Positions 3,471 through 30,572 of a stretch of DNA of 37,546 nt are shown here, in pieces. Origin of the DNA: Deltaproteobacteria bacterium. GTDB lineage: Bacteria; Desulfobacterota; Desulfobacteria; Desulfobacterales; B30-G6. The stretch is taken from contig QMMS01000005.1 in NCBI GenBank assembly GCA_003647375.1, positions 1-37,546 on the forward strand, written 5' to 3'. The stretch's first letter is position 1. Every line of letters begins with the position of its first letter. The translations under genes and the position numbers were made by a program. The notes under the pieces are model-generated. The model did no database searches. It was not told the origin of the DNA and saw nothing but the letters and a program-made list of their open reading frames with translations.

Positions 3471-3616
3471 TAGTGTCCATCCAGAAATGGTGGATTTTGG
3501 TTCAGAGCAAGGCCTGAGCGATTTTGAAACCACACGAATAACAGGTTATTTCGAAGATTTCAAAAGAGCGAAAACGCAGCTCTGGGCCAAAAGATGCCGT
3601 TTATGGATGGGCGCTA
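3471..3616. mobile_element. 146-bp foldback element, copy A
   Basis: The two halves are long imperfect inverted repeats. The left end is TAGTGTCCATCCAGAAATGG, and the right end read on the minus strand begins TAGCGCCCATCCATAAACGG. The centre holds a small hairpin, AATAAC-AG-GTTATT. A 147-bp relative with the same ends and centre lies at 30426-30572. The outer TAG of the right end is the stop codon of the bS22 gene at 3614-3616. A plus-strand open frame over this element (3430-3699) has no family resemblance and follows from the repeat. No transposase is present, so if mobile it is non-autonomous. Confidence 0.75.
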
Positions 3617-3712
3617 TTTACCCTTTCTGCGCTGATGGCGAGTCTTTGCCAACAGTTTTCGATGCTTGTGCTTCCGCATTTTCTTGCGACGTTTTTTAAT
3701 AACACTACCCAA
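3614..3712 (-). CDS. Small ribosomal protein bS22 / AURKAIP1-COX24 domain protein
   Basis: A 32-codon gene starting with TTG. The product begins M-GSVIKKRRKKMRKHKHRK and ends LLAKTRHQRRKGK, so over half its residues are Lys, Arg or His. This matches from memory the bS22-type peptide of mycobacterial 30S subunits (GSVIKKRRKRM..KKHRKLL) and the bacterial AURKAIP1/COX24 domain family. Such peptides sit near the decoding centre in known ribosomes. The start is decided by AGGAGGTGATC at 3715-3725, an 11-base complement of the 16S rRNA 3' end, two bases before TTG. The promoter at 3769-3798 fits. The stop TAG is the last three bases of the foldback element at 3471-3616. Confidence 0.85.
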   Translation of the reverse strand: MGSVIKKRRKKMRKHKHRKLLAKTRHQRRKGK

Positions 3713-3714
3713 TT

Positions 3715-3725
3715 GATCACCTCCT
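3715..3725 (-). promoter_or_regulatory. Extended Shine-Dalgarno site of bS22 gene
   Basis: AGGAGGTGATC on the minus strand matches the full 11-base complement of the common 16S rRNA 3' end GATCACCTCCT. It is followed by AA and the TTG start. Such a strong site explains use of a TTG codon in a very short, presumably highly expressed gene. Confidence 0.85.
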
Positions 3726-3768
3726 GTCTTAATCCTAATCTTAACTGAATTTATGAATGTAACTTTAT

Positions 3769-3798
3769 CTTATAACAGTTCTGTATTGGACATGTCCA
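3769..3798 (-). promoter_or_regulatory. Promoter of bS22 gene with palindrome over the -35 box
   Basis: On the minus strand TGGACA (3793-3798) and TATAAG (3769-3774) are spaced by 18 bases and each matches the sigma-70 consensus at five of six positions. The 12-bp perfect palindrome TGGACATGTCCA at 3787-3798 covers the -35 box and may be an operator. The predicted leader is about 50 bases. Confidence 0.5.
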
Positions 3799-3917
3799 TA
3801 CTTTTTCATATATTTTCTCATTTTTTTAACCGTGGGTTTGCAGGATCCTGTTGATCCCACTAAGCAGTCATGATAATGATATCTAAAAGGATGGTATTTT
3901 TTCCATTGAACATCGAA

Positions 3918-3933
3918 TCCCGCCATGGCGGGA
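3918..3933. repeat. 16-bp perfect palindrome in intergenic repeat
   Basis: TCCCGCCATGGCGGGA is self-complementary and lies between two AACATCGAAT-like words at 3909-3918 and 3941-3950. The stretch 3726-4000 otherwise holds only the bS22 promoter and this repeat-like sequence. Confidence 0.6.
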
Positions 3934-4000
3934 AACGTCCAACATCGAATTTTGAATGGGAAAAGAAGAAACAGAAGAACACCTGAGAACTTATTATTGA

Positions 4001-4246
4001 CTCAACTTTCGGGTTTCACCATCGATAGAGCAAAATGGGTGATCCAATGGCGATTTGCGCTGTTTGAGCCGTTTAGGGCACCTTACATCAGCGCATGTTA
4101 ATGAAAATCCAATATGAAAACACGATCATTTGGCAACCATACCTGTTTAACACTATGGCCAACGCTGATGTTAGGAGCCCTTGCGGCGAGTTCGCAAAGC
4201 GCCATGGGATTATTCATTTCGCGTTCGCTGAATCCAGAAAGTTGAG
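4001..4246. mobile_element. 246-bp MITE-like element, copy 1, with 7-bp target duplication
   Basis: The ends are inverted repeats: CTCAACTTTCGGG on the left and CTCAACTTTCTGG on the right, read inward on the minus strand. The element is flanked by TTATTGA at 3994-4000 and again at 4247-4253, a 7-bp target-site duplication. A same-length copy, about 88-89% identical by eye, lies at 19326-19571. An internal inverted repeat (ACATCAGCGC and a CGCTGATGT relative about 70 bases later) adds secondary structure. No transposase is encoded. It separates the HExxH gene at 4250 from its former upstream DNA. Confidence 0.85.
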
Positions 4247-4249
4247 TTA

Positions 4250-4789
4250 TTGAAAAAGAAACAGCTTTTTTCAAAAGCCCACCTCCATGTGGTCAACGAG
4301 TCGGTTGCCATGGCAGAAGAACTTGTCAGCGAATACTACAAGATGTCTGCTTCTGAATGGCTCCGACCAAAATTTGACGTCAAGACCCGCGTCGACCTTT
4401 CATCGGATGAGATCGTTCCGGGTCCATTCGCCCAGATTGTCCGATATGAAGGCCGACTCAAAGACGCTTCGCTGGGGTCCTCGTCCTATGACTATTACAA
4501 GATCTGCCTTCAGGATCATGAAATTCTTGGGGCAATTGCTAATAATCAGCAACTGGAACTTCTCCCGTTTGCACTCTACATTCTCACCCATGAGCTCATC
4601 CACATCGTTCGATTCAGCAAATTTCTGCAGAATTTCAATGCAAAACCCGAGGAAAGAATGACCGAGGAATCCAGGGTCCACGAATTGACTCACAAAATTC
4701 TCCACCCGGTACGCATTGACGGCCTCCCGGAGGTTCTCCATTTTTATATCCAATGGCGCGAGCCCATCAACAAACTTGAAAATACATAG
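4250..4789 (+). CDS. Uncharacterised HExxH-motif protein (putative metalloprotease fold)
   Basis: A 179-aa protein with HELIH at 114-118, the zinc-binding signature of gluzincin-like metalloproteases, in a hydrophobic context (PFALYILTHELIHIVRF). An acidic segment ERMTEESRVHE at about 135-145 could supply a third ligand. There is no signal peptide or membrane segment, so it should be cytoplasmic. I do not recognise a named family, but the sequence looks conserved and well folded. The TTG start lies inside the right target duplication of the MITE, and no clear Shine-Dalgarno site precedes it. The true start may be an internal codon such as the ATG at residue 21, or the insertion may have changed the 5' end. 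Confidence 0.7.
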   Translation: MKKKQLFSKAHLHVVNESVAMAEELVSEYYKMSASEWLRPKFDVKTRVDLSSDEIVPGPFAQIVRYEGRLKDASLGSSSYDYYKICLQDHEILGAIANNQQLELLPFALYILTHELIHIVRFSKFLQNFNAKPEERMTEESRVHELTHKILHPVRIDGLPEVLHFYIQWREPINKLENT

Positions 4790-4810
4790 CTCATATTAGA
4801 TTTCACTCTC

Positions 4811-4838
4811 TTGACAACTCAAAAACACTCACTATATT
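4811..4838 (+). promoter_or_regulatory. Sigma-70 type promoter for fmdB-like gene
   Basis: TTGACA at 4811-4816 and TATATT at 4833-4838 are separated by 16 bases. Transcription would start near 4845, about 50 bases before the ATG at 4894. It may also feed groESL downstream, since no terminator is visible between 5227 and 5358. Confidence 0.65.
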
Positions 4839-4893
4839 AGGTCTGAATTTGTTCTAAGTCCTTGTTTACAACACCTTTTTCAGGAGGAACTAC

Positions 4894-5226
4894 ATGCCCA
4901 TTTACGAGTATCAATGTAAAAAATGCGGCACTATTGAAGAAGCTCTTCAAAAATTTTCCGACAAACCCCTGACCAAATGCAGGCACTGTTCCGGAAAGCT
5001 TCACAAACTTGTTTCCCGAAGCAGCTTCCACTTGAAAGGTACGGGATGGTACGTGACCGATTATAAAAACAAGTCCAAAGATCCCGCTGCCGCATCCGAG
5101 AAAAAAACCGAGAGCGTTGGTTCTACCAAGTCCGAAAAAGCCGCATCGACTGCTAAGAAGACCTCGGCATCATCTGAAAATAAAATCACCGAAAACAAAG
5201 GGGCTGACAACACCAAAAAACCTTAA
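4894..5226 (+). CDS. FmdB family zinc ribbon protein
   Basis: A 110-aa protein whose first 50 residues are a FmdB/CxxC zinc ribbon: MPIYEYQCKKCG, with C8-x2-C11 and C29-x2-C32 as the four likely zinc ligands. The SFHLKGTGWYVTDYK segment at about 44-58 is typical of the family. The rest is a low-complexity Lys/Ser/Ala/Thr/Glu tail that is probably disordered. FmdB was first noted as a putative regulator of formamidase genes, but the general role is unknown. An AGGAGG site lies before the ATG. It sits just upstream of groESL, a position that suggests but does not prove a link with protein quality control. Confidence 0.88.
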   Translation: MPIYEYQCKKCGTIEEALQKFSDKPLTKCRHCSGKLHKLVSRSSFHLKGTGWYVTDYKNKSKDPAAASEKKTESVGSTKSEKAASTAKKTSASSENKITENKGADNTKKP

Positions 5227-5358
5227 TAACAACTCTTTACAAACATGAATGTGTGCTTACTTTTGATTAACCAATTTGAACCCAATCATTTTAAGCAGCT
5301 ATTTTAATCATTAGGTTTTACTTATTAACGAACGTTTAAGAAAAGGAGAGAAGGCAGA

Positions 5359-5646
5359 ATGAAACTGAGACCATTACAGGACCGAATTTTGGTACAACGT
5401 GTTGCAGAGGAAACAACTACCAAGGGTGGCATCATCATTCCGGATACCGCTAAAGAAAAACCTGCAGAGGGCAAAGTCACTGCCGCTGGAAACGGAAAAG
5501 TCGGTGATGATGGGAAACGGATTCCCCTTGAGATTAAAAAGGGTGACCGGATCCTGTTCGGCAAATATTCAGGTACCGAAGTTAAGATCGAAGGCGACGA
5601 ATATCTGATCATGCGTGAAGATGATGTTCTTGGCATAATTGAATAA
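5359..5646 (+). CDS. groES: Co-chaperonin GroES
   Basis: 95 aa, the normal GroES length. It begins [14 protein letters not shown], carries the mobile-loop region with [17 protein letters not shown] at about 19-33, and ends [14 protein letters not shown]. It forms the heptameric lid of the GroEL folding chamber. AAGGAGAG precedes the ATG, and groEL follows after 32 bases. The leader at 5227-5358 shows neither a CIRCE inverted repeat nor a clear sigma-32 promoter, so the mode of heat-shock control cannot be read from the sequence. Confidence 0.97.
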
Positions 5647-5651
5647 TTTAA

Positions 5652-7334
<1,683 letters not shown>

Positions 7335-7373
7335 GCCCTTTTTTATCTACCCATCTGTTACGAACAATACGTC

Positions 7374-7410
7374 AAAGCCCTTATGCATTTATGCATAAGG
7401 GCTTTTTTAT
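7374..7410 (+). terminator. Intrinsic terminator after groEL
   Basis: A perfect 15-bp stem (AAAGCCCTTATGCAT at 7374-7388 with its complement from 7391) and a 2-base loop are followed by TTTTTT. Confidence 0.92.
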
Positions 7411-7418
7411 TGAAATGC

Positions 7419-7448
7419 TTGACAAAACACCTAAAAATGGGGTATTTA
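7419..7448 (+). promoter_or_regulatory. Sigma-70 type promoter for LysM gene
   Basis: TTGACA at 7419-7424 is followed 18 bases later by TATTTA at 7443-7448. It starts immediately after the groEL terminator and serves the LysM gene. Confidence 0.5.
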
Positions 7449-7496
7449 ATCGGACTATCGACTGCAAATACCAACCGATAACATAAATGGAGATGT

Positions 7497-8576
7497 GTGA
7501 TGAACGGCAAACGCCTTATGCAGATATTCAAGTGCTTGACCGTATCCGCTGCTATAACCCTCGCCTTCTCACCCAGCGTGACAGCAGGCACCGGCGAAGA
7601 AACCATAGAACACGAAGCTGGATTCTATTACACGATTCAGCGAGGAGATACGCTCTGGGACTTGTCGGACAAATTTTTTGACTCGCCGTGGTATTGGCCT
7701 GAATTGTGGCAGGAAAACGAACAGATTCCCAATCCCCACTGGATCTATCCCGGTGAACGTATTCGGCTTTTTCAAAAACAGGGTAAAGACACATTCTCCT
7801 TTCATATCCCGGAGCCTGAAATCATTGTTCAGGAAAGTGCCGTCGAACTCGTCCAGGAAACGCCCATGCCCGAAGAAAAGACCGTCTATTATTCATACCC
7901 GCCCATGGATGCCGTCGGTTTCATCCGTAAAGAAACGGTCAATCCTCTTGGATACATCTTCAAGGTCAAGGATGATGCGATTCTGATTTCTGAGGGGGAC
8001 ACGGTCTATATCAGCTATGCAGACAAAGACGCCCTTCCCATTATGCAGGGCGGAAAGTACACGATCTACCGGAAACTGCATCCCACAACAGACCGCAAGC
8101 AGAACCGGCAACTGGGAGGTCAGTATTACATCCTCGGTATCGTTGAAGTCACCCGATTGGAAGCAGATTTTGTCATCGCAAAAGTCCTCAAATCCTTCCG
8201 ATCTATCGCCATCGACGACTTCATTCTGCCTTACGAGCGACGGTCGCCCGAAATTCCCATTACAGAAAGTGTTCCCAATTTAATCGGGAAACTTATCGTC
8301 TCGGAAGAGCATGCTGAAATCATTGGTGATATGACAGTGGCATTCATCGACAAGGGCAAGGTTGACAAAATCCAGGAAGGCCAGATTTACAACATTTTCT
8401 ACCAGGAAAAAGAAAACGTGAAAAAAAAGGGGGAAAAATCGGTGATCCTCACCCCGGTCGAGATTGGCCGGCTCATCGTCCTGCACACCGAGCAGGAAAC
8501 CGCCACCGTGCTGATCACCCAGACCGACCGGTCCGCGACTCCGAACGCTCTGATCCACACACCACCGGCCGAATAA
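7497..8576 (+). CDS. Secreted LysM domain protein
   Basis: A 359-aa exported protein. An N-terminal signal peptide runs to about residue 30 (SPSVTA, then GTGEE). A LysM peptidoglycan-binding domain follows at about 44-93, opening FYYTIQRGDTLWDLSDKFF and closing with HWIYPGERIRLF. The remaining 250 residues are beta-rich without a domain I can name, and contain the repeated pattern of a conserved deltaproteobacterial LysM family. It probably binds the cell wall in the periplasm. GTG (7497) and ATG (7500) are adjacent start candidates; the GGAG at about 7489-7492 is better spaced for ATG 7500. Confidence 0.8.
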   Translation: MMNGKRLMQIFKCLTVSAAITLAFSPSVTAGTGEETIEHEAGFYYTIQRGDTLWDLSDKFFDSPWYWPELWQENEQIPNPHWIYPGERIRLFQKQGKDTFSFHIPEPEIIVQESAVELVQETPMPEEKTVYYSYPPMDAVGFIRKETVNPLGYIFKVKDDAILISEGDTVYISYADKDALPIMQGGKYTIYRKLHPTTDRKQNRQLGGQYYILGIVEVTRLEADFVIAKVLKSFRSIAIDDFILPYERRSPEIPITESVPNLIGKLIVSEEHAEIIGDMTVAFIDKGKVDKIQEGQIYNIFYQEKENVKKKGEKSVILTPVEIGRLIVLHTEQETATVLITQTDRSATPNALIHTPPAE

Positions 8577-8584
8577 CCAGACTG

Positions 8585-8618
8585 TTCTTCGCTCAAGCCT
8601 TCAGGCCTGAGCGAAGAA
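8585..8618 (+). terminator. Strong hairpin after LysM gene
   Basis: TTCTTCGCTCA (8585-8595) pairs with TGAGCGAAGAA (8608-8618), enclosing a further AGCC/GGCC-type pairing. There is no long T run, so it probably acts together with the terminator at 8631-8671. Confidence 0.55.
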
Positions 8619-8630
8619 GTGCTGTCATAC

Positions 8631-8671
8631 AAAAAAGGCTCACACTTCTTTGCGAGGTGTGAGCCTTTTTT
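8631..8671. terminator. Bidirectional terminator between LysM gene and pilB
   Basis: AAAAAAGGCTCACAC (8631-8645) pairs with GTGTGAGCCTTTTTT (8657-8671). The A-tract and T-tract allow termination in both directions, as expected between two convergent genes. The end overlaps the last codon of the minus-strand ATPase gene. Confidence 0.92.
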
Positions 8672-10490
8672 ATTGTTCCCAGGTTACCCGCATAACCTCC
8701 TGATATGTGGTAACCCCCGCCAGAAACATATTGATGGCGTTTTCCCGCAGGCTCACCATTCCCTCTTGTATAGCTTTTTCCCGGATGGCTGTCAGGTCCG
8801 TCACTTCTGTGGTCAGCTTCCGGATAGCCTCGCTATAGGGCAAAACTTCGTGAATACCTATGCGGCCCTTGTAACCGGTTCCACGGCAGTGCTGGCACCC
8901 CCTGCCACGATAGACAGTGACCGTCTCTTGTGTCCCGATATTGAGACCCATCTGCTTCAACTCGGTTGTATCGATCTGAATAGCTTCTTTGCATCGATCA
9001 CAAATCTTTCGTACCAGGCGCTGGGAAACGATACCCCGCAGGGTCGCCTGAATCAGAAAGGGCGGCACCCCGAGTTCGATCAGCCGGGTGATGGACGCAG
9101 GTGCGTCGTTGGTATGTAGTGTCGAAAGGACCAGATGCCCTGTCAAGGCCGCCTGAATAGCATTCTCAGCCGTCTCCAGGTCACGCATCTCCCCCACCAT
9201 GATGACATCCGGGTCCTGCCGCAGAATATTCCTCAAAATTGAACCAAAGGTGACACCCACGATCGGGTTGACCGATATCTGGTTAAAGTCCTCATGGACC
9301 ATTTCAATGGGGTCCTCAATGGTCGTAATGTTAATTTCAGGGGTACAGATACTTCGCAGCGTGGAGTACAGGGTCGTAGACTTGCCACTCCCGGTGGGTC
9401 CGCACACCAGCACGATACCGTTGGGCATACTGACAAACTGGTTGTAACGGATCAGGTCCGTGGGGGTAAACCCCAGCTCATCGAGGTCCTGGAACAAAAT
9501 ATCCGGGTCCATGATCCGCATGACCACCTTTTCTCCGAAAGCCGTGGGGATCATGGATACACGTATTTCGACTTCCACACCCTCTTTTTCAGTCTTGATC
9601 CTGCCATCCTGGGGCCGCCGCTTTTCAGCCATGTCGATTCGAGACAGGTTCTTGATCCGGCTGACGATAGCCGGGTGAACTTTTTTAGGTATCTTGTGGA
9701 CTGTGTGCAGGACACCATCGATACGCATCCTGACCATGCTGGTATCTCGTTTCGGTTCAATATGAATATCGCTGGCCCGCTGATCAAATGCATAGGTAAA
9801 GAGATGGCTCACGGCATTGACAATATGTGAATCATTGGATGGGAGTTCATCCACGGACTTGAGCTGCACATACTGTTCAAGATTCCCCAGATCCACAATC
9901 GGGGCATTGAACTGGTTTTCGGCAGCGGCAATAGAACGTTTGAAACCAAAGAATTCATGGATCAATTTCAGGATGTCGGTCCTTGTGCTGACCACCACAT
10001 TGACCTCTAGTTTACTGGCTCTGGCAATGTCCTCCAGGACTTCGGTATTGAAGGGGTTGGCAGTGGCCACGGTCAAGCGCCCCTCACTGATGGCGATGGG
10101 AAGCATCAGGTGCTTCAAAGCAAAATTCCTAGGGATCGTGGTCGTGACCACGTTGAGATCCAACTTTACAGGATCGACTTTTTTAAAAGGAATTTTCCAC
10201 GCCTTGGCCAGGGCCTGATAGATAGCCTCTTCGTCAAGGGCAACCTCCGGCCGGGTTTCCTGCTTCATATTTAGCGCATCGATCACATCGATCATGGTAA
10301 CAGGCGTTTCAATGCGTGCCGATGGCAGGTCCGGATCGAGGTTCTTTTTTCGTTGTTTGGAAAGCTTCTCTTTTAAAGAGGTTTTTCTTTTGAGGATTTC
10401 GCCTGCTTTGGATGCTGAAATCAGTTGCTGCTTGACAAGAACCTGAAAAATTCTTTCATCCGAGAGGGGGTGGTTGACGTCGAAGGGCAT
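8670..10490 (-). CDS. pilB: Type IV pilus assembly / type II secretion ATPase, PilB/GspE family
   Basis: A 606-aa AAA+ secretion ATPase. The N-terminal T2SSE-type domain covers about 75-190. The ATPase core follows, with Walker A GPTGSGKST at 364-372, Walker B around DVIMVGEMRD at 428-437, and the His box GHLVLSTLHTND at 451-462. A zinc-binding tetracysteine (C497-x2-C500, C532-x2-C535) is typical of PilB and GspE. It powers pilin polymerisation from the cytoplasmic face of the inner membrane. Its place behind the minor pilin/PilY1 cluster favours PilB over GspE, but sequence alone does not separate them. The AAGGA site lies somewhat far (about 14 bases) from the ATG. Confidence 0.88.
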   Translation of the reverse strand: MPFDVNHPLSDERIFQVLVKQQLISASKAGEILKRKTSLKEKLSKQRKKNLDPDLPSARIETPVTMIDVIDALNMKQETRPEVALDEEAIYQALAKAWKIPFKKVDPVKLDLNVVTTTIPRNFALKHLMLPIAISEGRLTVATANPFNTEVLEDIARASKLEVNVVVSTRTDILKLIHEFFGFKRSIAAAENQFNAPIVDLGNLEQYVQLKSVDELPSNDSHIVNAVSHLFTYAFDQRASDIHIEPKRDTSMVRMRIDGVLHTVHKIPKKVHPAIVSRIKNLSRIDMAEKRRPQDGRIKTEKEGVEVEIRVSMIPTAFGEKVVMRIMDPDILFQDLDELGFTPTDLIRYNQFVSMPNGIVLVCGPTGSGKSTTLYSTLRSICTPEINITTIEDPIEMVHEDFNQISVNPIVGVTFGSILRNILRQDPDVIMVGEMRDLETAENAIQAALTGHLVLSTLHTNDAPASITRLIELGVPPFLIQATLRGIVSQRLVRKICDRCKEAIQIDTTELKQMGLNIGTQETVTVYRGRGCQHCRGTGYKGRIGIHEVLPYSEAIRKLTTEVTDLTAIREKAIQEGMVSLRENAINMFLAGVTTYQEVMRVTWEQ

Positions 10491-10568
10491 AGGGCTTCTG
10501 TTATCCTTCTTTTGGGTATCTGAAATCCGGCATCACGAATTAGAAAGCGTTTACGTTCCTATAAGTAA

Positions 10569-10606
10569 GGGTTCGAGGATACAAGGGTTCAAGGGGCCGA
10601 GGGGCC
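10569..10606. repeat. Short G-rich array (GGGTTCGAGG-like)
   Basis: AAGGGTTCGAGGATACAAGG and the following GGTTCAAGGGGCCGAGGGG repeat the same words found at 28036-28081 and 33079-33382, in the opposite orientation. Here the array lies upstream of pilB, about 80 bases from its start codon. Confidence 0.7.
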
Positions 10607-10635
10607 AATGTTCTGGGTTTCTTGTGTTTGTTGCG

Positions 10636-10767
10636 TTGATATTAACCCGGCGACTAAATAGCCAAACCCCGTCATGCCGGACATGATCCGGCATCCAGTG
10701 TTTTTCTGGATTCCCGCCTTCGCGGGAATGACAACTGTGGGGTATTTAACCGCCGGAGTAATATCAA
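10636..10767. repeat. 132-bp nested palindromic element
   Basis: The outer ends are inverted: TTGATATTAACCCGGCGACT on the left, and TTGATATTACTCCGGCGGTT read from the right. The core 10670-10732 opens GTCAT and closes ATGAC. It contains three hairpins: GCCGGA/TCCGGC, CCAG/CTGG and ATTCCCG/CGGGAAT. The core resembles a very common intergenic repeat of proteobacterial genomes. The rest of 10491-10866 holds repeat words such as AGCTATAAGCTAATA and no gene. Confidence 0.75.
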
Positions 10768-10866
10768 GGGATAAGCTAATAGCAGCATCCTAGCCTCCAA
10801 GCTTCCCAGCCTCATAGCCTATCACTCCTATCACCTATGACCTATACGAGCTATAAGCTAATATTG

Positions 10867-11334: not shown

Positions 11335-11374
11335 CACGATGCATCCCTCCTTCATACATGCTATTGTGCGGTTT

Positions 11375-11782: not shown

Positions 11783-11864
11783 GATGCCACCTTTTCCTCT
11801 GGAAATAAAAAAATGGTTATTGTTATTATTTACATATTTTAAACATTTCACGGAGCGAGGTTGC

Positions 11865-11935
11865 TGCATCCGCAAGGCGTCGGACCATGAAGCTGTAGCT
11901 TGCTACCGCGAATGGTCCGCAACACAGTGGATGCG
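11865..11935. other. Large imperfect hairpin between pilY1 and the next gene
   Basis: GCATCC near 11867-11872 and CGGACCAT at 11881-11888 pair with ATGGTCCG at 11912-11919 and GGATGC at 11929-11934. It lies in the 226-base gap inside the pilus unit and could pause or attenuate transcription after pilY1. Confidence 0.5.
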
Positions 11936-11958
11936 GTAAGATCGCTTCGCCCGAAGGG

Positions 11959-11994
11959 TGAAAGTTGACGAGCTGAAAAGCTCGTCAACTTTCA
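11959..11994 (-). terminator. 16-bp perfect hairpin just after pilY1
   Basis: TGAAAGTTGACGAGCT (11959-11974) and AGCTCGTCAACTTTCA (11979-11994) are perfectly complementary with a 4-base loop. It starts 15 bases after the pilY1 stop. No T run follows, so it may protect the mRNA end or partially terminate and not fully stop transcription. Confidence 0.55.
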
Positions 11995-18944: not shown

Positions 18945-19325
18945 CCTCGCATAACCATGGTTAAGCATGGTCCCCCGACCTCTCAACATGCACCGTCTTT
19001 TCGACTTAACTCATTATAATTTAATGATATTTAATACCATTATGCTTTCCACCAGTTCATCAGGAAAATTGAGTGAAACTCGGCACAAGACAGCCATACC
19101 TGTGATGATAGCCCGGTTAACTATAAAGTTTTTTTATACTGAGATTAAGAAGTTTAATAGATCACGATGGGATATGTAATGCTTCACAAGACACGTATAT
19201 ACTTAATTATTGTAGGTATTCAATGCGTAACCATGCAGGATTGATTGAGCTGTGATTGTGGCGTTATGTTACAACACGTAACTGAAAAGTCAAATGCTTT
19301 CTGGGAGTTAGGTATTAAGCTGTAA

Positions 19326-19571
19326 CTCAACTTTCGGCTTTCACCATAGATAGAGCGAAATGGGTGATCCAATGGCGATTTGTGCTGTTTGAGGCGCTTA
19401 GGGATCCTTACATCAGCGCATGACAATGAAAATCCAATATGAAAACCCGGTCACTTTGAAGCCATGCCTGCTTAACCATATGGCCGGCGCTGATGTTAGG
19501 AGTCCTTGCGGCGAGTTCGCAAAGCGCCAGGGGATTATTCATTTCGTGGTCGCTGAACCCCGAAAGTTGAG
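19326..19571. mobile_element. 246-bp MITE-like element, copy 2
   Basis: The ends are CTCAACTTTCGGC and, from the right, CTCAACTTTCGGG, with CTGTAA on both flanks as a 6-bp target duplication. Removing the element restores a continuous repeat word (TTAAGCTGTAAGCTATAAGC), so it jumped into pre-existing repeat DNA. Length is identical to copy 1 at 4001-4246. The surrounding 18945-19716 has no gene that I can support. Confidence 0.85.
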
Positions 19572-19577
19572 CTGTAA

Positions 19578-20742: not shown

Positions 20743-20839
20743 ATGCCCACGCCATTAGCCTTGCTAACCAACACCCTCCAACCCTCGTTAGCCTTTTAGC
20801 TGTTTAGACTGTAGCTGCTGATAGCGGATGGCTTTCAGC

Positions 20840-20916
20840 TACCCTCCAAACCTCCAACCCCCCAAACCTCTAACCCGCCAAACCCCCAAACCTCCAACCC
20901 TTCTCACCTCCAACCC
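20840..20916 (-). repeat. C-rich octamer array directly after purQ stop
   Basis: About nine 8-bp units such as CCTCCAAC, CCCCCAAA and CCTCTAAC on the plus strand, which makes the sense strand of purQ G-rich. The last unit merges with the purQ TGA. With 20254-20341 it forms an inverted pair. Smaller pieces of the same word lie at 20770-20786. Confidence 0.85.
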
Positions 20917-21747
20917 TCAATCCCTAAAATAGGCCACTGCATTTCCAAACACCTTCACCCCCGGCGTCAGACCGGAAGGCAGAGCTTCCCCCTTTCTCTT
21001 CAAATTTTCCTTCAAGAACGGCCAATCAGGGTGATTGGTCCAGTGGTTGTAGGCTTCCGGATGAGGCATGAGTCCGAATATCCGGCCAGTGGGATCGCAG
21101 ATGCCGGCAATGTCACCGATAGATCCATTGGGGTTGTAGGGAAATGCCTGGCCTGCAGGGCGCCCATCCTGTAGCGCATACTGAAGGACCACCTGCTGAT
21201 TATCCGTGATACGCTTCAGGGTTTCGGGATCGGTATAGAATTTGCCTTCACCGTGTCGGATTGGCAGTTCCAAATCTGTCAAACCTCGTGTGTAGACACA
21301 AGGGGATCCAGTATTGATGCGCATGTTCACCCATTGATCCCGGAAATTGCCGCAGTCATTGAATGTCACGGCCACAGTTCGCCCGGCATTTTCCGGTCGC
21401 CGGCCAGCAAGCTCGAATCCCGGGAGAAGCCCGAGATTGACCAGCGTCTGGAATCCATTGCAGATCCCCATAATTAGATTTCCCTTTTCGATAAAGTCGA
21501 AAAGATCCTTTCCGATGCTTGTCTTCATCCGCACGGCTTGAATCACACCCGCACCATGGTCGTCTCCCCAGCTGAATCCGCCGCCGAAAACCAGAATTTG
21601 AAAATCAGACAGGCTCACAGCACCGGCGATCAAGGCATTGATGTGCACCCGCCGTGCCGATGCACCGGCCAACTCAAAAGCGTAGGCTGTTTCGTTATCG
21701 CAATTCAATCCATATCCGGTCAGAACCAGTACATTCACTGCTTTCAT
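20917..21747 (-). CDS. purQ: Phosphoribosylformylglycinamidine synthase, glutaminase subunit PurQ
   Basis: A 276-aa class I glutamine amidotransferase. The nucleophile elbow MGICNGFQTLVNLG places Cys at 96, and the His/Glu pair is in PHPEA at 228-230. It supplies ammonia from glutamine to PurL in the fourth step of purine synthesis. It is longer than the common 225-aa PurQ. ATG 21747 overlaps the purL stop by four bases (ATGA), which fixes this start over a longer frame and shows translational coupling. Its stop lies at the edge of a G-rich repeat array. Confidence 0.93.
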   Translation of the reverse strand: MKAVNVLVLTGYGLNCDNETAYAFELAGASARRVHINALIAGAVSLSDFQILVFGGGFSWGDDHGAGVIQAVRMKTSIGKDLFDFIEKGNLIMGICNGFQTLVNLGLLPGFELAGRRPENAGRTVAVTFNDCGNFRDQWVNMRINTGSPCVYTRGLTDLELPIRHGEGKFYTDPETLKRITDNQQVVLQYALQDGRPAGQAFPYNPNGSIGDIAGICDPTGRIFGLMPHPEAYNHWTNHPDWPFLKENLKRKGEALPSGLTPGVKVFGNAVAYFRD

Positions 21748-24740: not shown

Positions 24741-24754
24741 AGACAACCATCCTT

Positions 24755-25003
24755 AAATAAAATCACTGCGCGATTTTATCGAACGCGACTTTGTCGCTTT
24801 TTTCAGGCCTCAGGTTCGTGACCTGTTTTTATTGGCATGCATAATCATGCCGAATCTACGTTGTGGTTTTATAAATCATTAAATTAGAATTCCCCGCTTC
24901 TTGATGCAGATCCCGATTCATCAGAGCTGCAGGGATAGGATTTTTTTCTTTTGCTCTAAAGCGACAACGTCGCGTCAAATAAAATCGTCTTACGATTTTA
25001 TCT
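24755..25003. repeat. 249-bp element with 41-43 bp terminal inverted repeats upstream of purL
   Basis: The left end (24755-24797) contains AATAAAATC, CGATTTTAT and GCGACTTTGTCGC. The right end (24961-25003) carries the same parts inverted (GCGACAACGTCGC, AATAAAATCGTCTTACGATTTTAT in two pieces). Each end folds into two small hairpins. The interior also holds CAGGT/ACCTG plus TTTTT at 24811-24830 and GGCATG/CATGCC at 24834-24851. The left edge touches the purL ribosome binding site. No gene is visible. Confidence 0.7.
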
Positions 25004-25040
25004 GGAATATCAAAAACAGAGACAAAATGAAATACCCAAA

Positions 25041-25118
25041 AGTAGGTTGGTGGTATCGCGGATGGATAATCCCTGTGCGAACGTGAAAAACTCGCTCCAA
25101 AGAGACCGTAATACCGAA
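25041..25118. repeat. 78-bp dispersed repeat, copy 1
   Basis: The sequence from AGTAGGTTGGTGGTATCGCG to ACCGTAATACCGAA is nearly identical to 37349-37426, with about three differences. Flanks differ, so this is a discrete unit. Both copies lie some hundreds of bases upstream of a minus-strand gene (purL, rho). Function unknown. Confidence 0.85.
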
Positions 25119-25200
25119 CAGGGCCATATCTTTAAGATGAGTTTTGCTTTTTGAATACCGGATGCGTTTATCTATAAAGCTCAAGCGAGACCACTTACAG

Positions 25201-25430
25201 AGGTCTGCGGGGGTTCGTTTTAAAGTCGGGCAACTGTCTGAGATCGTTAGGCGCCGTTAGGCCCGCAACATAAACAAAATGGTTACAAAGACATAACCAA
25301 ATGTTACTTAAAAACATATTTAAAGACGACTGGCAGCGGCGGGTCTTACGGCGCCTTAGGAGCGAGTTTTGGCCGGCTTTAAAGCGAATTTCCGCAGACC
25401 GGCAATACAACCCAGATTGAGTTTTGCGGA
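25201..25430. repeat. Foldback element with about 60-bp inverted repeats
   Basis: AGGTCTGCGGGGGTTCG with following TTTTAAAGTCGGGCAA and TAGGCGCCGTTAGGCCCGC (25201-25265) is mirrored at 25339-25400. A tail beyond the right arm, to about 25430, recurs at window position 1-47. The element has an AT-rich centre and no open frame with family resemblance. It is the last part of the 721-bp gene-free gap before rseP. Confidence 0.7.
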
Positions 25431-25461
25431 CAAAAGGTAAACCTAAATCTGTTCTCTGTTT

Positions 25462-26529
25462 TCAGCTGGTAAATATCCGCGAAATGTCGTTGTAAAAAAC
25501 GAAGATCATCAGCGTAATCAAAATGAAGATGCCGGCCTGCTGGGCAATCTCGCGTGTACGCATTTTCACCGGTCTGCCGATGATGAGTTCTATGAGGAAA
25601 AAGAGGATGTGCCCGCCATCCAATACGGGGATGGGCAGAAAATTGATGATAGCCAGATTGATACTGAGAAGGGCGATCAAAAAAATAAAATTCAATACGC
25701 CTTCCCTGGCCTGCTGACCCGCGAGCTCTGCAATCATGATGGGTCCGCCAATGGTTTTGGTGGAGATAGTTCCCTTGATAAGCTTGGCAATACTGACGAC
25801 GGTCAGCTCTGCAATATTGTAGGTTTGCCGGACACTTTCGATCACAGATTCACCAAGGCCGAGTTTCCGGTTCTCCACATCTCCTGCCGATGCCACACCA
25901 ATGAAATACCGATCAATGTCTTCACCGAACAGGTTCTTTGTTTTTTTAGCAATGGGTTTTATTTCAAGGGCAATCACCTCATCCAGCCGTTGAACTGAAA
26001 ATACAAGGGGTCGGCCATTGCTTGCTGCAATACCTTCTGCCATCTCTTCCCAGGTGGAAATCGCCTGTCCATCGACGGCCTTGATGATATCTCCCTTTTG
26101 AAGTCCACTTTCATGCGCCGGCATATTCTCCTGAACTTCTCCGATCGTCGGCCTGAGGATATAGGTACCTGAAAAAAAGAAAATACAGAGAAATATTAAA
26201 ATCGCCAGCAAAACGTTGAAAAGAGGCCCGGCGGCCACAATAAGGAGTTTTTTCAAAACGTGTTTATGGGTAAATGAAAAGGGGATATCTTCAGGATCCA
26301 TTTCCACGGCAGGATCGTCCCCTACCATCTTGACATACCCCCCCAGGGGAATGGCTGATACACGGTAATCCGTAAGACCGGACTTCCAGCCGAATATTCG
26401 AGGCCCGAAACCAAGAGAAAATTTTTCGACCCCGACACCAAACATTCGTGCAAATAAAAAGTGTCCCAATTCATGAAAAAAAATCAAGACACCCAGCACG
26501 ACAATAAATGCAAGTATACTGGTTCCCAT
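25462..26529 (-). CDS. rseP: Site-2 protease RseP
   Basis: A 355-aa membrane metalloprotease. HELGH lies at 19-23 in the first membrane helix, and the third zinc ligand region NFLPIPVLDGG is at 296-306. A single PDZ domain covers about 128-192 (E. coli RseP has two), followed by the C-terminal membrane helices. It cleaves anti-sigma factors and remnant signal peptides inside the membrane. ATG 26529 is chosen, since it starts directly with the first membrane helix; a 24-residue longer frame has no support. It follows dxr in the usual order, but 233 bases of repeat-like DNA lie between. Confidence 0.93.
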   Translation of the reverse strand: MGTSILAFIVVLGVLIFFHELGHFLFARMFGVGVEKFSLGFGPRIFGWKSGLTDYRVSAIPLGGYVKMVGDDPAVEMDPEDIPFSFTHKHVLKKLLIVAAGPLFNVLLAILIFLCIFFFSGTYILRPTIGEVQENMPAHESGLQKGDIIKAVDGQAISTWEEMAEGIAASNGRPLVFSVQRLDEVIALEIKPIAKKTKNLFGEDIDRYFIGVASAGDVENRKLGLGESVIESVRQTYNIAELTVVSIAKLIKGTISTKTIGGPIMIAELAGQQAREGVLNFIFLIALLSINLAIINFLPIPVLDGGHILFFLIELIIGRPVKMRTREIAQQAGIFILITLMIFVFYNDISRIFTS

Positions 26530-26639
26530 ATATTGACTCTCTAAATATAATTCTTGTCCGGGTTCATGTGCCCCGGCGCTGATTAAACCCCATAGTTGCA
26601 TAAATAATCAAAACAGCTCATGGGCTTTAACGGTAACAT

Positions 26640-26715
26640 CTTATTTTGAACATTTGAATTTTGAACATTTGATATTATTTCGAATTTCGATATTCGTGCT
26701 TCGAATTTAAATAAT
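26640..26715. repeat. TTGAACATTTGAATTTT-like intergenic repeat
   Basis: Repeated words TTTTGAACATTTGAA and TTCGAATTTCGATATTCG fill the gap between dxr and rseP. Similar words occur at 3903-3956. The stretch 26530-26762 has no gene. Confidence 0.6.
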
Positions 26716-26762
26716 AAGAATGATGTCTGGATCCGTCAACCTCAGCAGGTGTATTCATGAAA

Positions 26763-27932
26763 TCAAGATCTGTCTGACCCGCTATCGATAAACCTATATG
26801 CAGCCTTTCTGGCCCACTGATCAGCAGTCAAAATATCATCGAGAGATGGTTTCGGCTGATTCGTATGATACGTCAGGGTCTGTTCGATGACAACCGGAAT
26901 CTTGTCAAAGGACAACCGGCACTCCAAAAAAGCAAGCACAGCCACCTCATTAGCTGCATTCAACACAGACGGCAGGGTCCCGCCCGTTTTGCCCGCTTTC
27001 ATGGCCAATCCCAGGCAGGAAAATTTTACCAAGTCCGGCTCTTTGAAGGTAAAACAACCGATATCGGCAAAATCGGGCAATGGCTGCCCCAGGGGCAGTC
27101 GTTCTGGAAAAGATAAGGCAAAGGCAATAGCGCCTTTCATATCGGGTATCCCGAGTTGCGCGAGAATAGAGCCGTCCTGAAAGGAAACCATGGAGTGAAT
27201 AATGCTTTGGGGGTGCACCACAACCCGGATCCTGTCCATCGCTACATGAAAAAGATGTTTGGCTTCAATGACTTCCAGTCCCTTGTTCATGAGAGTAGCT
27301 GAATCGATAGTAATTTTGCGTCCCATCTGCCAGTTCGGGTGGTTCAGAGCAGCCTCGGGACTGACACCCGGAAATGATTGGATTGGCATATCCATGAAAG
27401 GGCCACCTGAAGCCGTTATCAACAATACATCCAGATCGGATGCCCGCTGTCCCATCAAGCACTGAAATATTGCGCTATGCTCGCTGTCCACCGGAATAAT
27501 GTTCACCCCGTTTTTTTGGGCAAGCTGCATGACCAGTTCACCTGCCATGACCAGCGTTTCCTTGTTGGCCAGGGCGATGTCCTTACCTGCTTCAATGGCT
27601 GCGATCGTCGGCATCAAGCCTGCTGCACCCACGACCGCCGTCAGGACCATATCAGATGTTTCATAAGCTGCTGCGGTTTGATAGCCGGACTCACCATACA
27701 CAATGTTGACATCCGCATCCTTCGCCAAAGCCCGTTCCAGATCCGCCGCCCCAGCCTCGTCAAATACGGCTACCAATTCAGGTCGAAACTGTTTAACCTG
27801 CTCGGCCAGTTTGGAGATATTACGCCCGGCAGTCAAAACCTTTGCGGTAAAACGTTCCGGAAATTGCGCGACAACCTTGAGGGCATTGGTACCAATGGAA
27901 CCGGTGGAACCCAGGATAGTAAGATTTTTCAA
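26763..27932 (-). CDS. dxr: 1-deoxy-D-xylulose 5-phosphate reductoisomerase
   Basis: 389 aa, the full Dxr length. The NADPH-binding GSTGSIG is at 8-14. The catalytic region contains ALANKETLVMAG, VDSEHSAIFQC, ASGGPF and the metal-binding NHPNWQMGRKITIDSATLMN. It makes 2-C-methyl-D-erythritol 4-phosphate, the committed intermediate of the MEP isoprenoid pathway, which feeds UppS encoded nearby. The start is TTG at 27932 with AAAGGA six bases upstream, as no ATG is possible in frame. Repeat DNA of 149 bases separates it from cdsA. Confidence 0.96.
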   Translation of the reverse strand: MKNLTILGSTGSIGTNALKVVAQFPERFTAKVLTAGRNISKLAEQVKQFRPELVAVFDEAGAADLERALAKDADVNIVYGESGYQTAAAYETSDMVLTAVVGAAGLMPTIAAIEAGKDIALANKETLVMAGELVMQLAQKNGVNIIPVDSEHSAIFQCLMGQRASDLDVLLITASGGPFMDMPIQSFPGVSPEAALNHPNWQMGRKITIDSATLMNKGLEVIEAKHLFHVAMDRIRVVVHPQSIIHSMVSFQDGSILAQLGIPDMKGAIAFALSFPERLPLGQPLPDFADIGCFTFKEPDLVKFSCLGLAMKAGKTGGTLPSVLNAANEVAVLAFLECRLSFDKIPVVIEQTLTYHTNQPKPSLDDILTADQWARKAAYRFIDSGSDRS

Positions 27933-28035
27933 ATGTAATCCTTTTTCTCTGGAGAAAGTTGCATGCTATCAGGCTAGGATGCTTGGAGGCTGGGAGGCTG
28001 CTCTTAGCGTTTAGCTGTCAGCCTTAAGCTTGTAA

Positions 28036-28081
28036 GGTCTTACCCTTGAACCCTGGAAACCTCGAACCCTTGAACCCTTTC
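28036..28081 (-). repeat. G-rich array (GGGTTCAAGG/GGGTTCGAGG) after cdsA stop
   Basis: Read on the sense strand of cdsA, TAA is followed by GAAA and then GGGTTCAAGGGTTCGAGG and GGGTTCAAGGG. The preceding 27961-28035 is made of other repeat words (AGGATGCTTGGAGGCTGGGA). The same G-rich words follow prmC at 33079-33382. Confidence 0.8.
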
Positions 28082-28894
28082 TTAAAACAAATACACCTTA
28101 AACAGATAGGCAACGGGTGCTGCAAACAAGGTTGCATCGGCTCGATCCAGTATCCCGCCATGACCGGGAAAAATCCCGCCGGAATCCTTGATCCCGGCCA
28201 CACGCTTAAGCCCGGATTCAAACAGATCGCCCATCTGCCCCATGATGCCAAGTGAAATAAAAAAAAGAAAACTGATTCCCCAGGATAACTCCGGCAGGAG
28301 CAGTAGTTTAATACATATACCGATGATTATATTGACAGCGATACCGCCAAGAGACCCTTCGATGGTTTTTTTCGGGCTCACCGCCGGATTCAGTTTGTGT
28401 TTTCCAAAAAATGTCCCAGCGTAAAGCGCACCGATATCTCCTGCAAACACAATTGCCAACGTTAAAAACATCCAGTATGCCCCTTCCATTTGTTCACCAT
28501 CCCGAATCAGGACCAGATAAGAAAACAGCACCGGAATATAGACAACACCGAGCACTGTCTTTTTGGATATCTCATAGACGAGGCGATTTTTTTTATACAA
28601 CAGGACAGACAAAAGTGCGGTCACGATAAAATAGAGGGTGATTATATGGAACATGAGGCCGACAACATGAAAGTGAGCTGCCCACATGATTGCTGGGATG
28701 GACAGGTAGCCAACCAGAACAATGAGACTCCTGGCGGTCTCACGATTGTCACTGAAAACCACACGGGTATATTCCCAGAAACCCATCAGTGCCAAGAGCC
28801 CGATAAATGCCGAGAAAAGAACACCGCCCTTGATGATGATGAAAATCAGAAAAGGTAATACAACAAGACCTGTAATCCAGCGTTTTAAATGCAT
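28082..28894 (-). CDS. cdsA: Phosphatidate cytidylyltransferase
   Basis: A 270-aa polytopic membrane enzyme with about seven or eight hydrophobic segments. The CDP-diglyceride synthetase signature lies near the C terminus (GQMGDLFESGLKR, then GIKDSG and PGHGGILDRAD), and GDIGALYAGTFFGKHKLNP is at about 152-170. It makes CDP-diacylglycerol, the precursor of all bacterial phospholipids. No clear Shine-Dalgarno site precedes the ATG; an A/C-rich heptamer array begins 10 bases upstream. Its stop is followed after four bases by a G-rich array. Confidence 0.94.
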   Translation of the reverse strand: MHLKRWITGLVVLPFLIFIIIKGGVLFSAFIGLLALMGFWEYTRVVFSDNRETARSLIVLVGYLSIPAIMWAAHFHVVGLMFHIITLYFIVTALLSVLLYKKNRLVYEISKKTVLGVVYIPVLFSYLVLIRDGEQMEGAYWMFLTLAIVFAGDIGALYAGTFFGKHKLNPAVSPKKTIEGSLGGIAVNIIIGICIKLLLLPELSWGISFLFFISLGIMGQMGDLFESGLKRVAGIKDSGGIFPGHGGILDRADATLFAAPVAYLFKVYLF

Positions 28895-28904
28895 TTTAGC
28901 AAGA

Positions 28905-29018
28905 GTGTTTGGTGTGTTGTGTTTTGTGTTTTGTGTTGTGTTTTGTGTGTTGTGTTTGGTGTTTGGTGTTTGGTGTTTGGTATATTGTGTTTGGTATATT
29001 GTGTCTGGTGTCTGGCGG
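28905..29018. repeat. Heptamer array (TTTGGTG/TTTTGTG) 5' of cdsA
   Basis: About 15 units of seven bases or close variants (TTTGGTG, TTTTGTG, TATTGTG). It is the same family as 1136-1227 and in the same position relative to a minus-strand start codon. The whole gap between uppS and cdsA (28895-29105) consists of this array and flanking AT-rich sequence. Confidence 0.9.
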
Positions 29019-29105
29019 TATGATAGCTTAGTACATCAGACCCTATTTCAAATAAAGGCTAAATACGAAACACTAAATACAAAACACAAATTCCCCCTAA
29101 ATGAT

Positions 29106-29858
29106 TTACGTCTGACTGATCCTGCCGAACCTGCGTTCGCGTCTCTGAAAATCACCCAGTATGGCCATGAATTCTTCTCGTGAAAACTCCGGCCAGAGGG
29201 TATCCGTAACAAAAATCTCTGCATAGGCGATCTGCCACAGCAGAAAATTACTGATACGCATGTCGCCGCCGGTCCTGATGAGCAGATCCGGGTCACACAT
29301 CCCCCGGGTGTATAAATTATCGGAAACGATCTCAGGGGTGATGGCGGAGGGATCCAACCGGCCATCTTTTACATGGGTTGCAATCTGCTTCACCATCTCA
29401 ACAATTTCGGTTCTACCGCCATAACTGAGTGCCAGATTCAGCATCAACCCCGTGTTTGATGCCGTCATTTCCATATTCTGCTGCAGTACACTGCGAACGC
29501 TCTTCGGAATTCGATGGGTCTGTCCGATGGTGTTCAAGCGGATATTGTTTTCGTGCAAGTCCCTTGATTCGGACTTCAAAAAGCGCTTGAGAAGATCCAT
29601 CAGGGCGGCGACTTCTGCTTTGGGTCGCTGCCAGTTCTCCGTCGAAAAAGCATAAAGGGTCAGGATCTCGATGCCGATTTCGCGGCAAATACGAACAATC
29701 CTTCTGACGGCATCGGCCCCTTTTTCATGCCCATTGATACGATTCATCAAGCGCTGTTTGGCCCAGCGTCCGTTTCCATCCATGATGATAGCAATATGAG
29801 AAGGAAGTTTTGAAAGGTCAGGATCACCTGAGTCAGGATGAGACATATTAGAATTCAA
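29106..29858 (-). CDS. uppS: Isoprenyl transferase (undecaprenyl diphosphate synthase)
   Basis: A 250-aa cis-prenyltransferase. The catalytic HIAIIMDGNGRWAKQR has Asp at 27, and the C-terminal RTGGDMRISNFLLWQIAYAE and RRFGR motifs are present. It makes the C55 lipid carrier for cell wall and surface polymers. The frame allows TTG at 29858, which overlaps frr, or ATG at 29846, which follows the frr TAA stop after one base; neither has a strong Shine-Dalgarno site, and family alignment does not decide. It is next to cdsA and dxr in the usual order. Confidence 0.95.
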   Translation of the reverse strand: MNSNMSHPDSGDPDLSKLPSHIAIIMDGNGRWAKQRLMNRINGHEKGADAVRRIVRICREIGIEILTLYAFSTENWQRPKAEVAALMDLLKRFLKSESRDLHENNIRLNTIGQTHRIPKSVRSVLQQNMEMTASNTGLMLNLALSYGGRTEIVEMVKQIATHVKDGRLDPSAITPEIVSDNLYTRGMCDPDLLIRTGGDMRISNFLLWQIAYAEIFVTDTLWPEFSREEFMAILGDFQRRERRFGRISQT

Positions 29859-30405
29859 GAATTTCTTTCTCTTTTTCTTTGTAAATAGCGTCTACCTGTT
29901 TGATGTGGTCATCCGTAATTTCTTGAACTTGATCCTGCCCCTTGAAGGATTCGTCTTCTGATATATCACCTTCCTTCTTGAAACCCTTGATGAGCTCGTT
30001 GGAATCCCGTCGAATGTTGCGCAAGGCAATTTTGTGGTCCTCACACATCTTGTGAACCACTTTGACCAGTTCTTTGCGTCTCTCCTCGGTGAGGGGTGGA
30101 ATCGATATCCGGATGATCTTACCATCACTTGAAGGGGTGAGACCTAGATCGGATTTCAATAATGCCTTTTCGATTTCCTTGATGACCGACACATCCCAGG
30201 GTTGAATGGTAATCAAGCGGCTCTCCGGAACGGACAACGTGGCCATCTGGTTGAGGGGCGTCAGTGTCCCGTAATAGTCTACCCGTATACCATCCAGCAG
30301 GGACAAGGAAGCTCGGCCTGTCCGGACGCGTTTCAACTCGTTTTTCAATGCGGCGATGGTTTTCCCCATCCGCCCCCGCATTTCCTGATAGATGTCATCC
30401 AGCAT
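29848..30405 (-). CDS. frr: Ribosome recycling factor
   Basis: 185 aa, the normal length. The family phrases RTGRASLSLLDGIRVDYYG and the C-terminal ESFKGQDQVQEITDDHIKQV are visible. With EF-G it splits post-termination ribosomes. AAAGGAT lies a few bases before the ATG. It is separated from pyrH by a 147-bp foldback element but keeps the usual tsf-pyrH-frr order. Confidence 0.97.
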   Translation of the reverse strand: MLDDIYQEMRGRMGKTIAALKNELKRVRTGRASLSLLDGIRVDYYGTLTPLNQMATLSVPESRLITIQPWDVSVIKEIEKALLKSDLGLTPSSDGKIIRISIPPLTEERRKELVKVVHKMCEDHKIALRNIRRDSNELIKGFKKEGDISEDESFKGQDQVQEITDDHIKQVDAIYKEKEKEILEF

Positions 30406-30425
30406 TGGTTTTATCCTTTGTTAGA

Positions 30426-30572
30426 TAGTGCCCATTCACAAATGAGAAATTTTGTGTGAGTTCAAGGCGGACGTCAGATTTGAACCGCAGGAATAGCGGG
30501 CTATTTTGAGGATTCAAATCATGGCGTCCAACGCCGAAATCACGCAAAAGAGCCATTTGTGGGTGGGCACTA
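30426..30572. mobile_element. 147-bp foldback element, copy B, between pyrH and frr
   Basis: The outer ends are TAGTGCCCATTCACAAATG and, read from the right, TAGTGCCCACCCACAAATG. Inner arms continue imperfectly for about 60 bases, and the centre contains AATAGC-GG-GCTATT followed by TTGAGGATTCAAA. It matches copy A at 3471-3616 in length, ends and centre. Its right TAG is the pyrH stop codon. The frr ribosome binding site lies just outside the left end. Confidence 0.8.

Follow-up and report, generated by a model that had tools for sequence, protein, structure and literature searches.

Short palindromic elements at the stop codons of pyrH and a bS22-like gene in a Desulfobacterales contig

Two long foldback sequences stand at the ends of two minus-strand genes in a stretch of 37,546 nucleotides from a Deltaproteobacteria bacterium of the Desulfobacterales (B30-G6; assembly GCA_003647375.1, contig QMMS01000005.1, positions 1 to 37,546), which is called the window throughout. 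We consider it probable that both, copy A at a bS22-like gene and copy B at pyrH, arose by insertion of a short palindromic element without coding capacity, which resembles miniature inverted-repeat transposable elements (MITEs), was presumably moved in trans and is tolerated at stop codons that were rebuilt. Their family is mobile and non-autonomous, and its target duplications are 6 bp long with the consensus TANNTA. Scattered 'multicopy palindromes' are in this way united in a defined family of mobile DNA whose target rule can be measured and for whose detection covariance models are now at hand, and stop codons rebuilt by the insertion itself would offer mobile DNA a neutral niche.

Two foldback copies and their mobile family

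Read directly from the sequence, copy A (3471-3616, 146 bp) and copy B (30426-30572, 147 bp) are long foldbacks, with the ends TAGTGTCCA/TAGCGCCCA in copy A and TAGTGCCCA at both ends of copy B. RNA folding of the plus strand gave -65.2 kcal/mol (z -8.4) for copy A and -78.9 kcal/mol (z -11.8) for copy B, and none of 200 shuffles matched the fold stability of either copy on either strand, which bears out the long foldbacks that the first-pass annotation had placed here. It was equally right in taking the outer TAG for the stop codon of a minus-strand gene at both copies: read on the minus strand, the TAG on the right is in frame with the bS22-like open reading frame (ORF) at copy A and with pyrH at copy B. 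The terminal 9-mer shows no excess in the window (six occurrences with one mismatch allowed, against 6.2 in shuffles). In the window, a covariance model found just copies A and B (136 and 130 bits), both of which are among its 18 training rows, together with weaker matches on the opposite strand.

The evidence for the family beyond the window is drawn from the genomes of relatives. The collection of 59 elements consists of 58 paired ones, taken from 80 and 60 fetched stretches, the search loci and the window, and of copy A, which narrowly missed the arm limit of the element finder and was hence added by hand. Two good ends were required per copy; 47 of the first 80 fetched loci gave no pair in a first pass, and later unpaired loci were dropped as well. 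Left and right flanks are identical in 46-54 of 58 cases at exactly six positions and in 10-19 of 58 outside these. The six target bases read TANNTA, with an R-Y leaning in the middle and Y and R on the outside, and the duplication of element A is perfect. Since the off-consensus targets at loci L122 (GAGTTA/GAGTTA) and L131 (TAAGTT/TAAGTT) repeat their odd letters on both sides, the terminal TA is target-derived and the element proper begins with G and ends with C. The same targets rule out that the element carries the TAG, as had been proposed: it brings just the G, and TA comes from the target duplication. The foldbacks were thus correctly recognized, but the limits first given to them include this flanking TA, and the mobile units proper are those listed in Table 1.

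At a typical length of about 146 bp, the element is too short for a transposase. Allowing one mismatch, the TGGATGGGCACTA end is present in 73 places in genome G008 and in 58 in G003; the other 16 genomes searched for it have 0-8 each, compared with 0-4 there for a reversed control. The GTGYCCATCCAKAAA end occurs, again with one mismatch, 9 to 325 times per genome in 11 genomes versus 0-2 times for the reversed control, and 32 of 194 genomes from the order have an exact end with NNTA behind it. Comparison of one element copy with plasmid and phage records gave no similarity. In G003, a second, GGAAACTRCTTAGTGCTC-like repeat is joined to TGGATGGGCACTA ends at loci L152, L154, L158, L166, L167 and L190, most of which have no second end.

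At copy A the reconstructed empty site reads GGT AAA TAA, with an in-frame TAA stop, and at copy B either target copy restores an in-frame TAA. Both genes end here in a partly element-derived TAG, which is of relevance for annotation. A search of 19 genomes gave matches to the bS22-like ORF in 18, and the 13 readable orthologues of this ORF stop with TAA (9), TAG (3) or TGA (1); in all 13 there is no element within 60 nt after the stop. A stop older than the insertion had been named beforehand as a sign of mere coincidence; such a stop is indicated for bS22 by the perfect duplication, the TAA of the empty site and the TAA of most orthologues, and the choice between coincidence and preference is left to the counts given below. 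The closest pyrH relative found (84% identity) has a TGA stop and no element, within a comparison that covers orthologues of at most 84% identity, the nearest of them from Desulfobacterales. Stops were read by patterns, and 7 of 20 bS22 loci and 7 of 30 pyrH loci went unread. Related elements sit at the pyrH stop in two other genomes, so it may have served as a target repeatedly: G008 carries a short related element of 29 bp, and G025 (L366, around 2199) a degraded full-length one with one extra G after TAG and the flanks TAAATA/TAAATT, whose insertion may, to judge from the sequence, have moved the pyrH stop by one codon.

A folded core common to several end types

Aligned across genomes, the 59 copies (143-148 bp) form subfamilies with different arms in which the pairing is kept. 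In an alignment of 18 chosen copies, one or two per genome, 93.8% of the cells are paired and double changes occur in 25 of 48 pairs, with 110 double-change cells against 36.9 in shuffled and at most 38 in slid alignments. The core corresponds to the inner ~80 nt and carries the motifs CAAGGC, AACCGCAGGMRTA, TAYKYCGAGGATT and AACGC. For the 30 of 34 core stretches that were used, the covariation score is 0.610 versus 0.182 after shuffling and at most 0.188 after sliding, with 168 double-change cells versus 54.5, while further pair types are unremarkable (48 versus 45.5; 105 of 500 shuffles do as well). In 76 of 79 copies the better fold is that of the CAAGGC strand, a bias that could stem from common ancestry alone. 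Rfam 15 gave no match at gathering score in the window and none with E <=1 at 3441-3650.

Two covariance models, R1 built on the 18 copies and R2 on the core, extend the range of these sequences. Of 118 genomes sampled from the phylum, 36 contain R1 matches with E <=1e-3, and the matches listed are mostly 144-147 nt long; the best 26 candidates were scored per genome and the E-values are rough. In the phylum of a Nitrospiraceae record, 44 of 100 genomes match R1 at this threshold, with lower scores and mostly 120-131 nt among the matches listed, and four of these loci were read. R2 matches 6 of 40 genomes of mixed phyla and leaves 34 without a match; the positive ones are two Geobacter genomes (6 and 8 matches), one Desulfuromonas, one Nitrospira and one Syntrophales genome, and a weak partial match in one of the Myxococcales.

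The terminal repeats of the element end types are GTGYCCATCC, GAGACCTTTGAAAA, GGTACCTTGAAAA and CAGGCTGTTSAAAAA. In the four loci read from the phylum of the Nitrospiraceae record and in several Desulfobacterota genomes, the core motifs are much alike while the terminal repeats differ. The duplication length varies as well. An end type found in one genome (G289, 7 copies) has a 4-bp flank repeat at 27 of 28 positions, or one of 6 bp at 36 of 42 if the outer letters common with the ends are counted, and the GAGACC end type (10 copies from four genomes) has a 5-bp flank repeat at 39 of 50 positions. The Syntrophales genome G422, with 14 core-model matches, has elements with CAGGCTGTTSAAAAA ends in 18 loci, of which 16 match the core model at E <=0.01 and 13 at E <=1e-4. 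Of their flank repeats of four bases (CTGA, ATAG, TCAG), 3 of 18 are exact and 6 more differ by one letter.

From these alignments and model searches, a strongly covarying hairpin core is common to element types with different ends and with 4-, 5- and 6-bp duplications, and spans Desulfobacterota, Geobacter/Desulfuromonas and Nitrospirota. The persistence of the same non-pairing loops argues for selection on the shape, although it does not amount to proof. The question is thereby raised why a transposon should be better conserved inside than at its ends.

Stop codons as insertion sites

In the mechanism that we propose, a DDE-type transposase acting in trans would presumably move the element. 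If the target includes the TA of a stop codon TAA or TAG, the element's G would come to stand after TA and create an in-frame TAG, whereas in another end type insertion beside the stop, in a YTRR-like site, would keep an in-frame stop by stop duplication. Because an in-frame stop is left either by the element's G or by the duplicated stop, insertions at stop sites would be neutral and hence persist. At least one end type may have, in addition, a physical preference for the 3' ends of genes. The hairpin of the core, folded as DNA or RNA, would most likely be of use to the element and not to the host gene.

For the TAGTG end type, non-coding copies outside the window were assigned to classes after reconstruction of their empty sites, with genes called by a simple program based on codon usage; copies A and B were left out of these totals, and the on-stop label of copy A was set by hand, its 32-aa gene being below the size limit of the caller. 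In the first set, the TA of the stop is the inner TA of the target in 12 of 51 copies and the outer TA in 4 more. A fresh set of 36 elements from 40 loci, some with boundaries that look shifted by one base, gave 4 of 32 for the inner and 2 of 32 for the outer TA. Pooled, the inner TA overlaps a stop in 16 of 83 copies (19%), against a motif-weighted non-coding expectation of 5.8% (p 1.9e-5), and inner and outer TA together in 22 of 83 against 10.4% (p 2.9e-5). About a fifth to a quarter of the TAGTG-type copies overlap a stop, and the majority lie off stops. These counts show an association with stops but no rule, and the generalization from two of two copies was an overstatement. The underlying idea, an inserted element that spares the protein and is over-represented at stops, is supported by the duplications and the stop counts.

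A second association comes from the Syntrophales genome G422, analyzed with one gene caller. With outer boundaries, set by the longest end pair of 110-160 bp, the stop of a called gene directly abuts the element in 9 of 15 non-coding copies, against an expectation of 5.5% from a motif model trained on the same sites (p 2e-8); with uniform inner boundaries, an in-frame stop abuts in 5 of 14 (p 7e-4).

Several observations weigh against insertion with stop reconstruction. The fresh set alone is not significant (p 0.11 for 4 of 32 and for 6 of 32), and the three nulls used for the TAGTG type (all TANNTA sites, 6/180; motif-weighted, 5.8%; locus-conditioned, 9.7) lead to different results. The locus-conditioned null, a choice among the sites of the same locus, expects 9.7 on-stop copies where 16 are seen (1.6-fold, p 0.005). 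It expects 8.5 against 13 when only clean duplications are counted (p 0.02), a filter failed by 10 of 59 first-set and 11 of 36 fresh elements, and 2.65 against 3 in the fresh set (p 0.53), where no excess is left. What remains for the TAGTG type is a modest on-stop excess carried by the first set. In the case of G422, the count depends on the outer boundary, which was chosen after stop-like flanks had been seen. At pyrH itself, the two target copies of element B agree at just four of six positions, and the degraded copy at the pyrH stop of G025 may have supplied its own stop. As for the core, arm-to-arm correction or copying within a palindrome could yield covariation without selection. Finally, neither an autonomous partner nor a transposase flanked by matching ends came up in the searches made, which covered two transposase families, mostly draft genomes and end pairing in fetched loci, a scope that does not establish absence; the 29 ends of G066, with 4.2 Mb nearly all on one contig, gave none.

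The partner search returned several candidates that were set aside. A DDE_Tnp_1 profile gave 27 matches in six genomes, the nearest being an IS5-like element of G008 (L272, 178-1102, two overlapping ORFs), whose ends GTGCTTATCCGTAAATA agree with the family ends at 13 of 16 positions; flanked by TTA, it was rejected as partner because of its 3-bp repeat. The ISNCY model had 9 weak matches, none above the cut-off and none with matching ends. The single end pair of insertion-sequence size in G066 (1546657-1547717) belongs to two separate elements with no ORF longer than 102 aa between them, and an element pair in L124 encloses, by reading, an electron-transfer flavoprotein gene instead of a transposase. 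Five ORFs near ends in G422 have no transposase domain, one of them being without any Pfam match.

A purely passive overlap with stops stands at not quite an even chance. A YTARYTAR target has TAR on both strands, so if coding insertions are lost, stops would remain among the surviving sites by arithmetic. The observed consensus T-A-R-Y-T-A with flanking Y/R fits this; the locus-conditioned null accounts in such terms for most of the on-stop TAGTG-type copies and for all of the fresh-set excess, and neither the 7 G289-type nor the 10 GAGACC-type copies show a clear on-stop pattern. Arguing for something beyond arithmetic are the motif-weighted expectation, exceeded more than threefold, and the abutting in-frame stops of G422 under both boundary rules.

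A more far-reaching proposal, which we regard as rather unlikely, takes the ~80-nt hairpin CAAGGC...AACCGCAGGMRTA...TAYKYCGAGGATT...AACGC for a module that travels with different ends and that, as folded RNA or as single-stranded DNA, would steer or license insertion at stops; the end types with 4-, 5- and 6-bp duplications would make different transposases probable. If so, the element would ride into transcripts without damage to proteins.

Improbable, and more so than the steering module, is a host regulatory device, i.e., a 3'-UTR (untranslated region) hairpin that stabilizes or ends mRNAs and is selected at gene ends. The very stable folds, the conserved and covarying core with its internal loops and the location of copy B between pyrH and frr would suit such a role, and a Geobacter study (PMC2700814) lists, under the name of predicted short RNA elements, what is apparently this core. 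The orientation of the copies speaks against it. At TAGTG-type stops the stable strand is sense in 7 cases and antisense in 7 (8 versus 10 with a second offset class), between co-directional genes the ratio is 24 versus 18, and the genes on either side are divergent in 22 of the 74 copies classified. At both window copies the stable strand is antisense to the neighbouring gene, which leaves the suggested tuning of frr expression, or any benefit to the mRNA, without support. Neither the readable bS22 orthologues nor the closest pyrH relative found carries the element after the stop. Counted without bias, in a neutral self-alignment, the wobble pairs of the 18 copies show little strand preference (90 G-T, 70 A-C); an RNA-strand argument built on 79 G-U versus 13 A-C on the RNA-predicted structure was dropped in view of these counts.

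Elements of the IS200/IS605 class are not known to make target duplications. Repetitive extragenic palindromes (REPs) moved by a tyrosine transposase of that class (RAYT) are palindromic, of high copy number and intergenic, and GTAG REP termini often give the TAG stop of flanking ORFs (PMC3733652), yet the 4- to 6-bp target duplications, the typical length of ~146 bp versus 20-40 bp and the terminal inverted repeats make this origin very improbable.

Related repeats and surroundings of the two copies

Bacterial MITEs such as NEMIS, RUP, ERIC and Bcr1 are short and non-coding, with terminal inverted repeats, target duplications, foldback potential and high copy number, all of which holds for the present family. 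It differs from them by several end types and duplication lengths around one structured core across phyla, by the stop-codon excess and by an autonomous partner not found in the searches made. GTAG REPs are mobilized by RAYT, which is not known to produce target duplications. The same four MITEs are listed in the background of PMC3733652, and PMC2229807 describes RUP and a 155-bp Correia element as having stop codons in every frame.

The statement that no named family has the property of supplying stops does not hold, since GTAG REPs, 20-40 bp palindromes with GTAG at one end, are described in the available part of PMC3733652 with a terminal TAG that is often the stop of the flanking ORF. The likeness lies in a palindromic repeat whose terminal TAG serves as the stop of a flanking gene. 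The elements studied here are, in contrast, ~146 bp long, have duplications and take TA from the target; they resemble GTAG REPs neither in a 20-40 bp palindrome with GTAG at one end nor in insertion without target duplication.

Among the closest known repeats are predicted short RNA elements of Geobacter metallireducens, present in 24 copies with the central palindrome GRCGTAGCGCTGCTACGCC, with similar sequences in Desulfotalea according to the authors (PMC2700814). On the opposite strand, this palindrome agrees with the core centre GGCGTAGC-N-GCTACGTC, and both groups are intergenic and multicopy. By reading, the G095 core GGCGTAGCAGCGCTACGTT matches the reverse complement of GRCGTAGCGCTGCTACGCC at 18 of 19 positions, while many other copies have AATA in place of CGTA at that site. 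The identity rests on this 19-nt motif, and the accessible portion of the description mentions no duplications, end types, mobility or stop codons. Palindromic multicopy families of G. bemidjiensis are mentioned in the part of PMC2996986 that was available, and the portions consulted of PMC8147514, PMC10969869 and PMC2229807 describe nothing closer. Among the texts retrieved, in part or as extracts, our literature search found no paper describing these ends or target duplications, and end and core sequence strings searched in the literature led to unrelated papers only.

Table 1. Coordinates of the two elements, their target copies and cores, and neighbouring features in the window
Feature	Position	Strand	Basis or remark
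Element A proper, foldback, 142 bp, between bS22-like gene and likely terminator	3473..3614	+	Orientation is that of the CAAGGC strand
Element A, left 6-bp target duplication, TATTTA	3467..3472	.	Flank comparison
Element A, right 6-bp target duplication, TATTTA	3615..3620	.	With the C of the element forms the minus-strand TAG stop
Element A, conserved covarying core	3504..3582	+	Core alignment and covariation
Element B proper, 143 bp, between pyrH and frr	30428..30570	+	Reading, fold, covariance model, duplications
Element B, left target copy, TAGATA	30422..30427	.	
Element B, right target copy, TAGTTG	30571..30576	.	4/6 same as left copy
Element B, conserved covarying core	30459..30539	+	Core alignment and covariation
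bS22-like ORF, 32 aa, TTG start; TAG stop from target TA and element G	3614..3712	-	Sequence reading; orthologues
pyrH (UMP kinase), TAG stop at end of element B	30570..31286	-	PF00696
frr (ribosome recycling factor), next gene downstream of pyrH	29848..30405	-	
hflC-like gene, on the other side of copy A from the bS22-like ORF	2445-3386		Band_7 domain
Inverted repeat GAAAGCACCGG/CCGGTGCTTTC followed by T7, likely terminator	3406..3437	.	Sequence reading

The bS22-like ORF runs towards copy A. Because copy A sits between the bS22 stop and the likely terminator, the bS22 transcript probably takes in the whole copy, as read from the sequence. The inverted repeat of this terminator is not in the list of a terminator-type scan with a loop limit of 8, and a similar inverted repeat lies 3' of the bS22 stop in several relatives. 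At the copy B locus, tsf is located upstream of pyrH.

The window contains further repeats. Tandem arrays of a 7-base unit (TTTTGTG/TTTGGTG) occur at 1117-1254 and 28887-29031, about 28 kb apart. Short C-rich units (CCTCCAAA-like, CCCTCGAACCCTTG-like) form arrays common to 10786-10827, 20835-20932, 28036-28077 and 33118-33393. A 247-nt repeat with 89% identity is found at 4000-4246 and 19325-19571, and an 85-nt repeat with 95% identity at 25034-25118 and 37342-37426.

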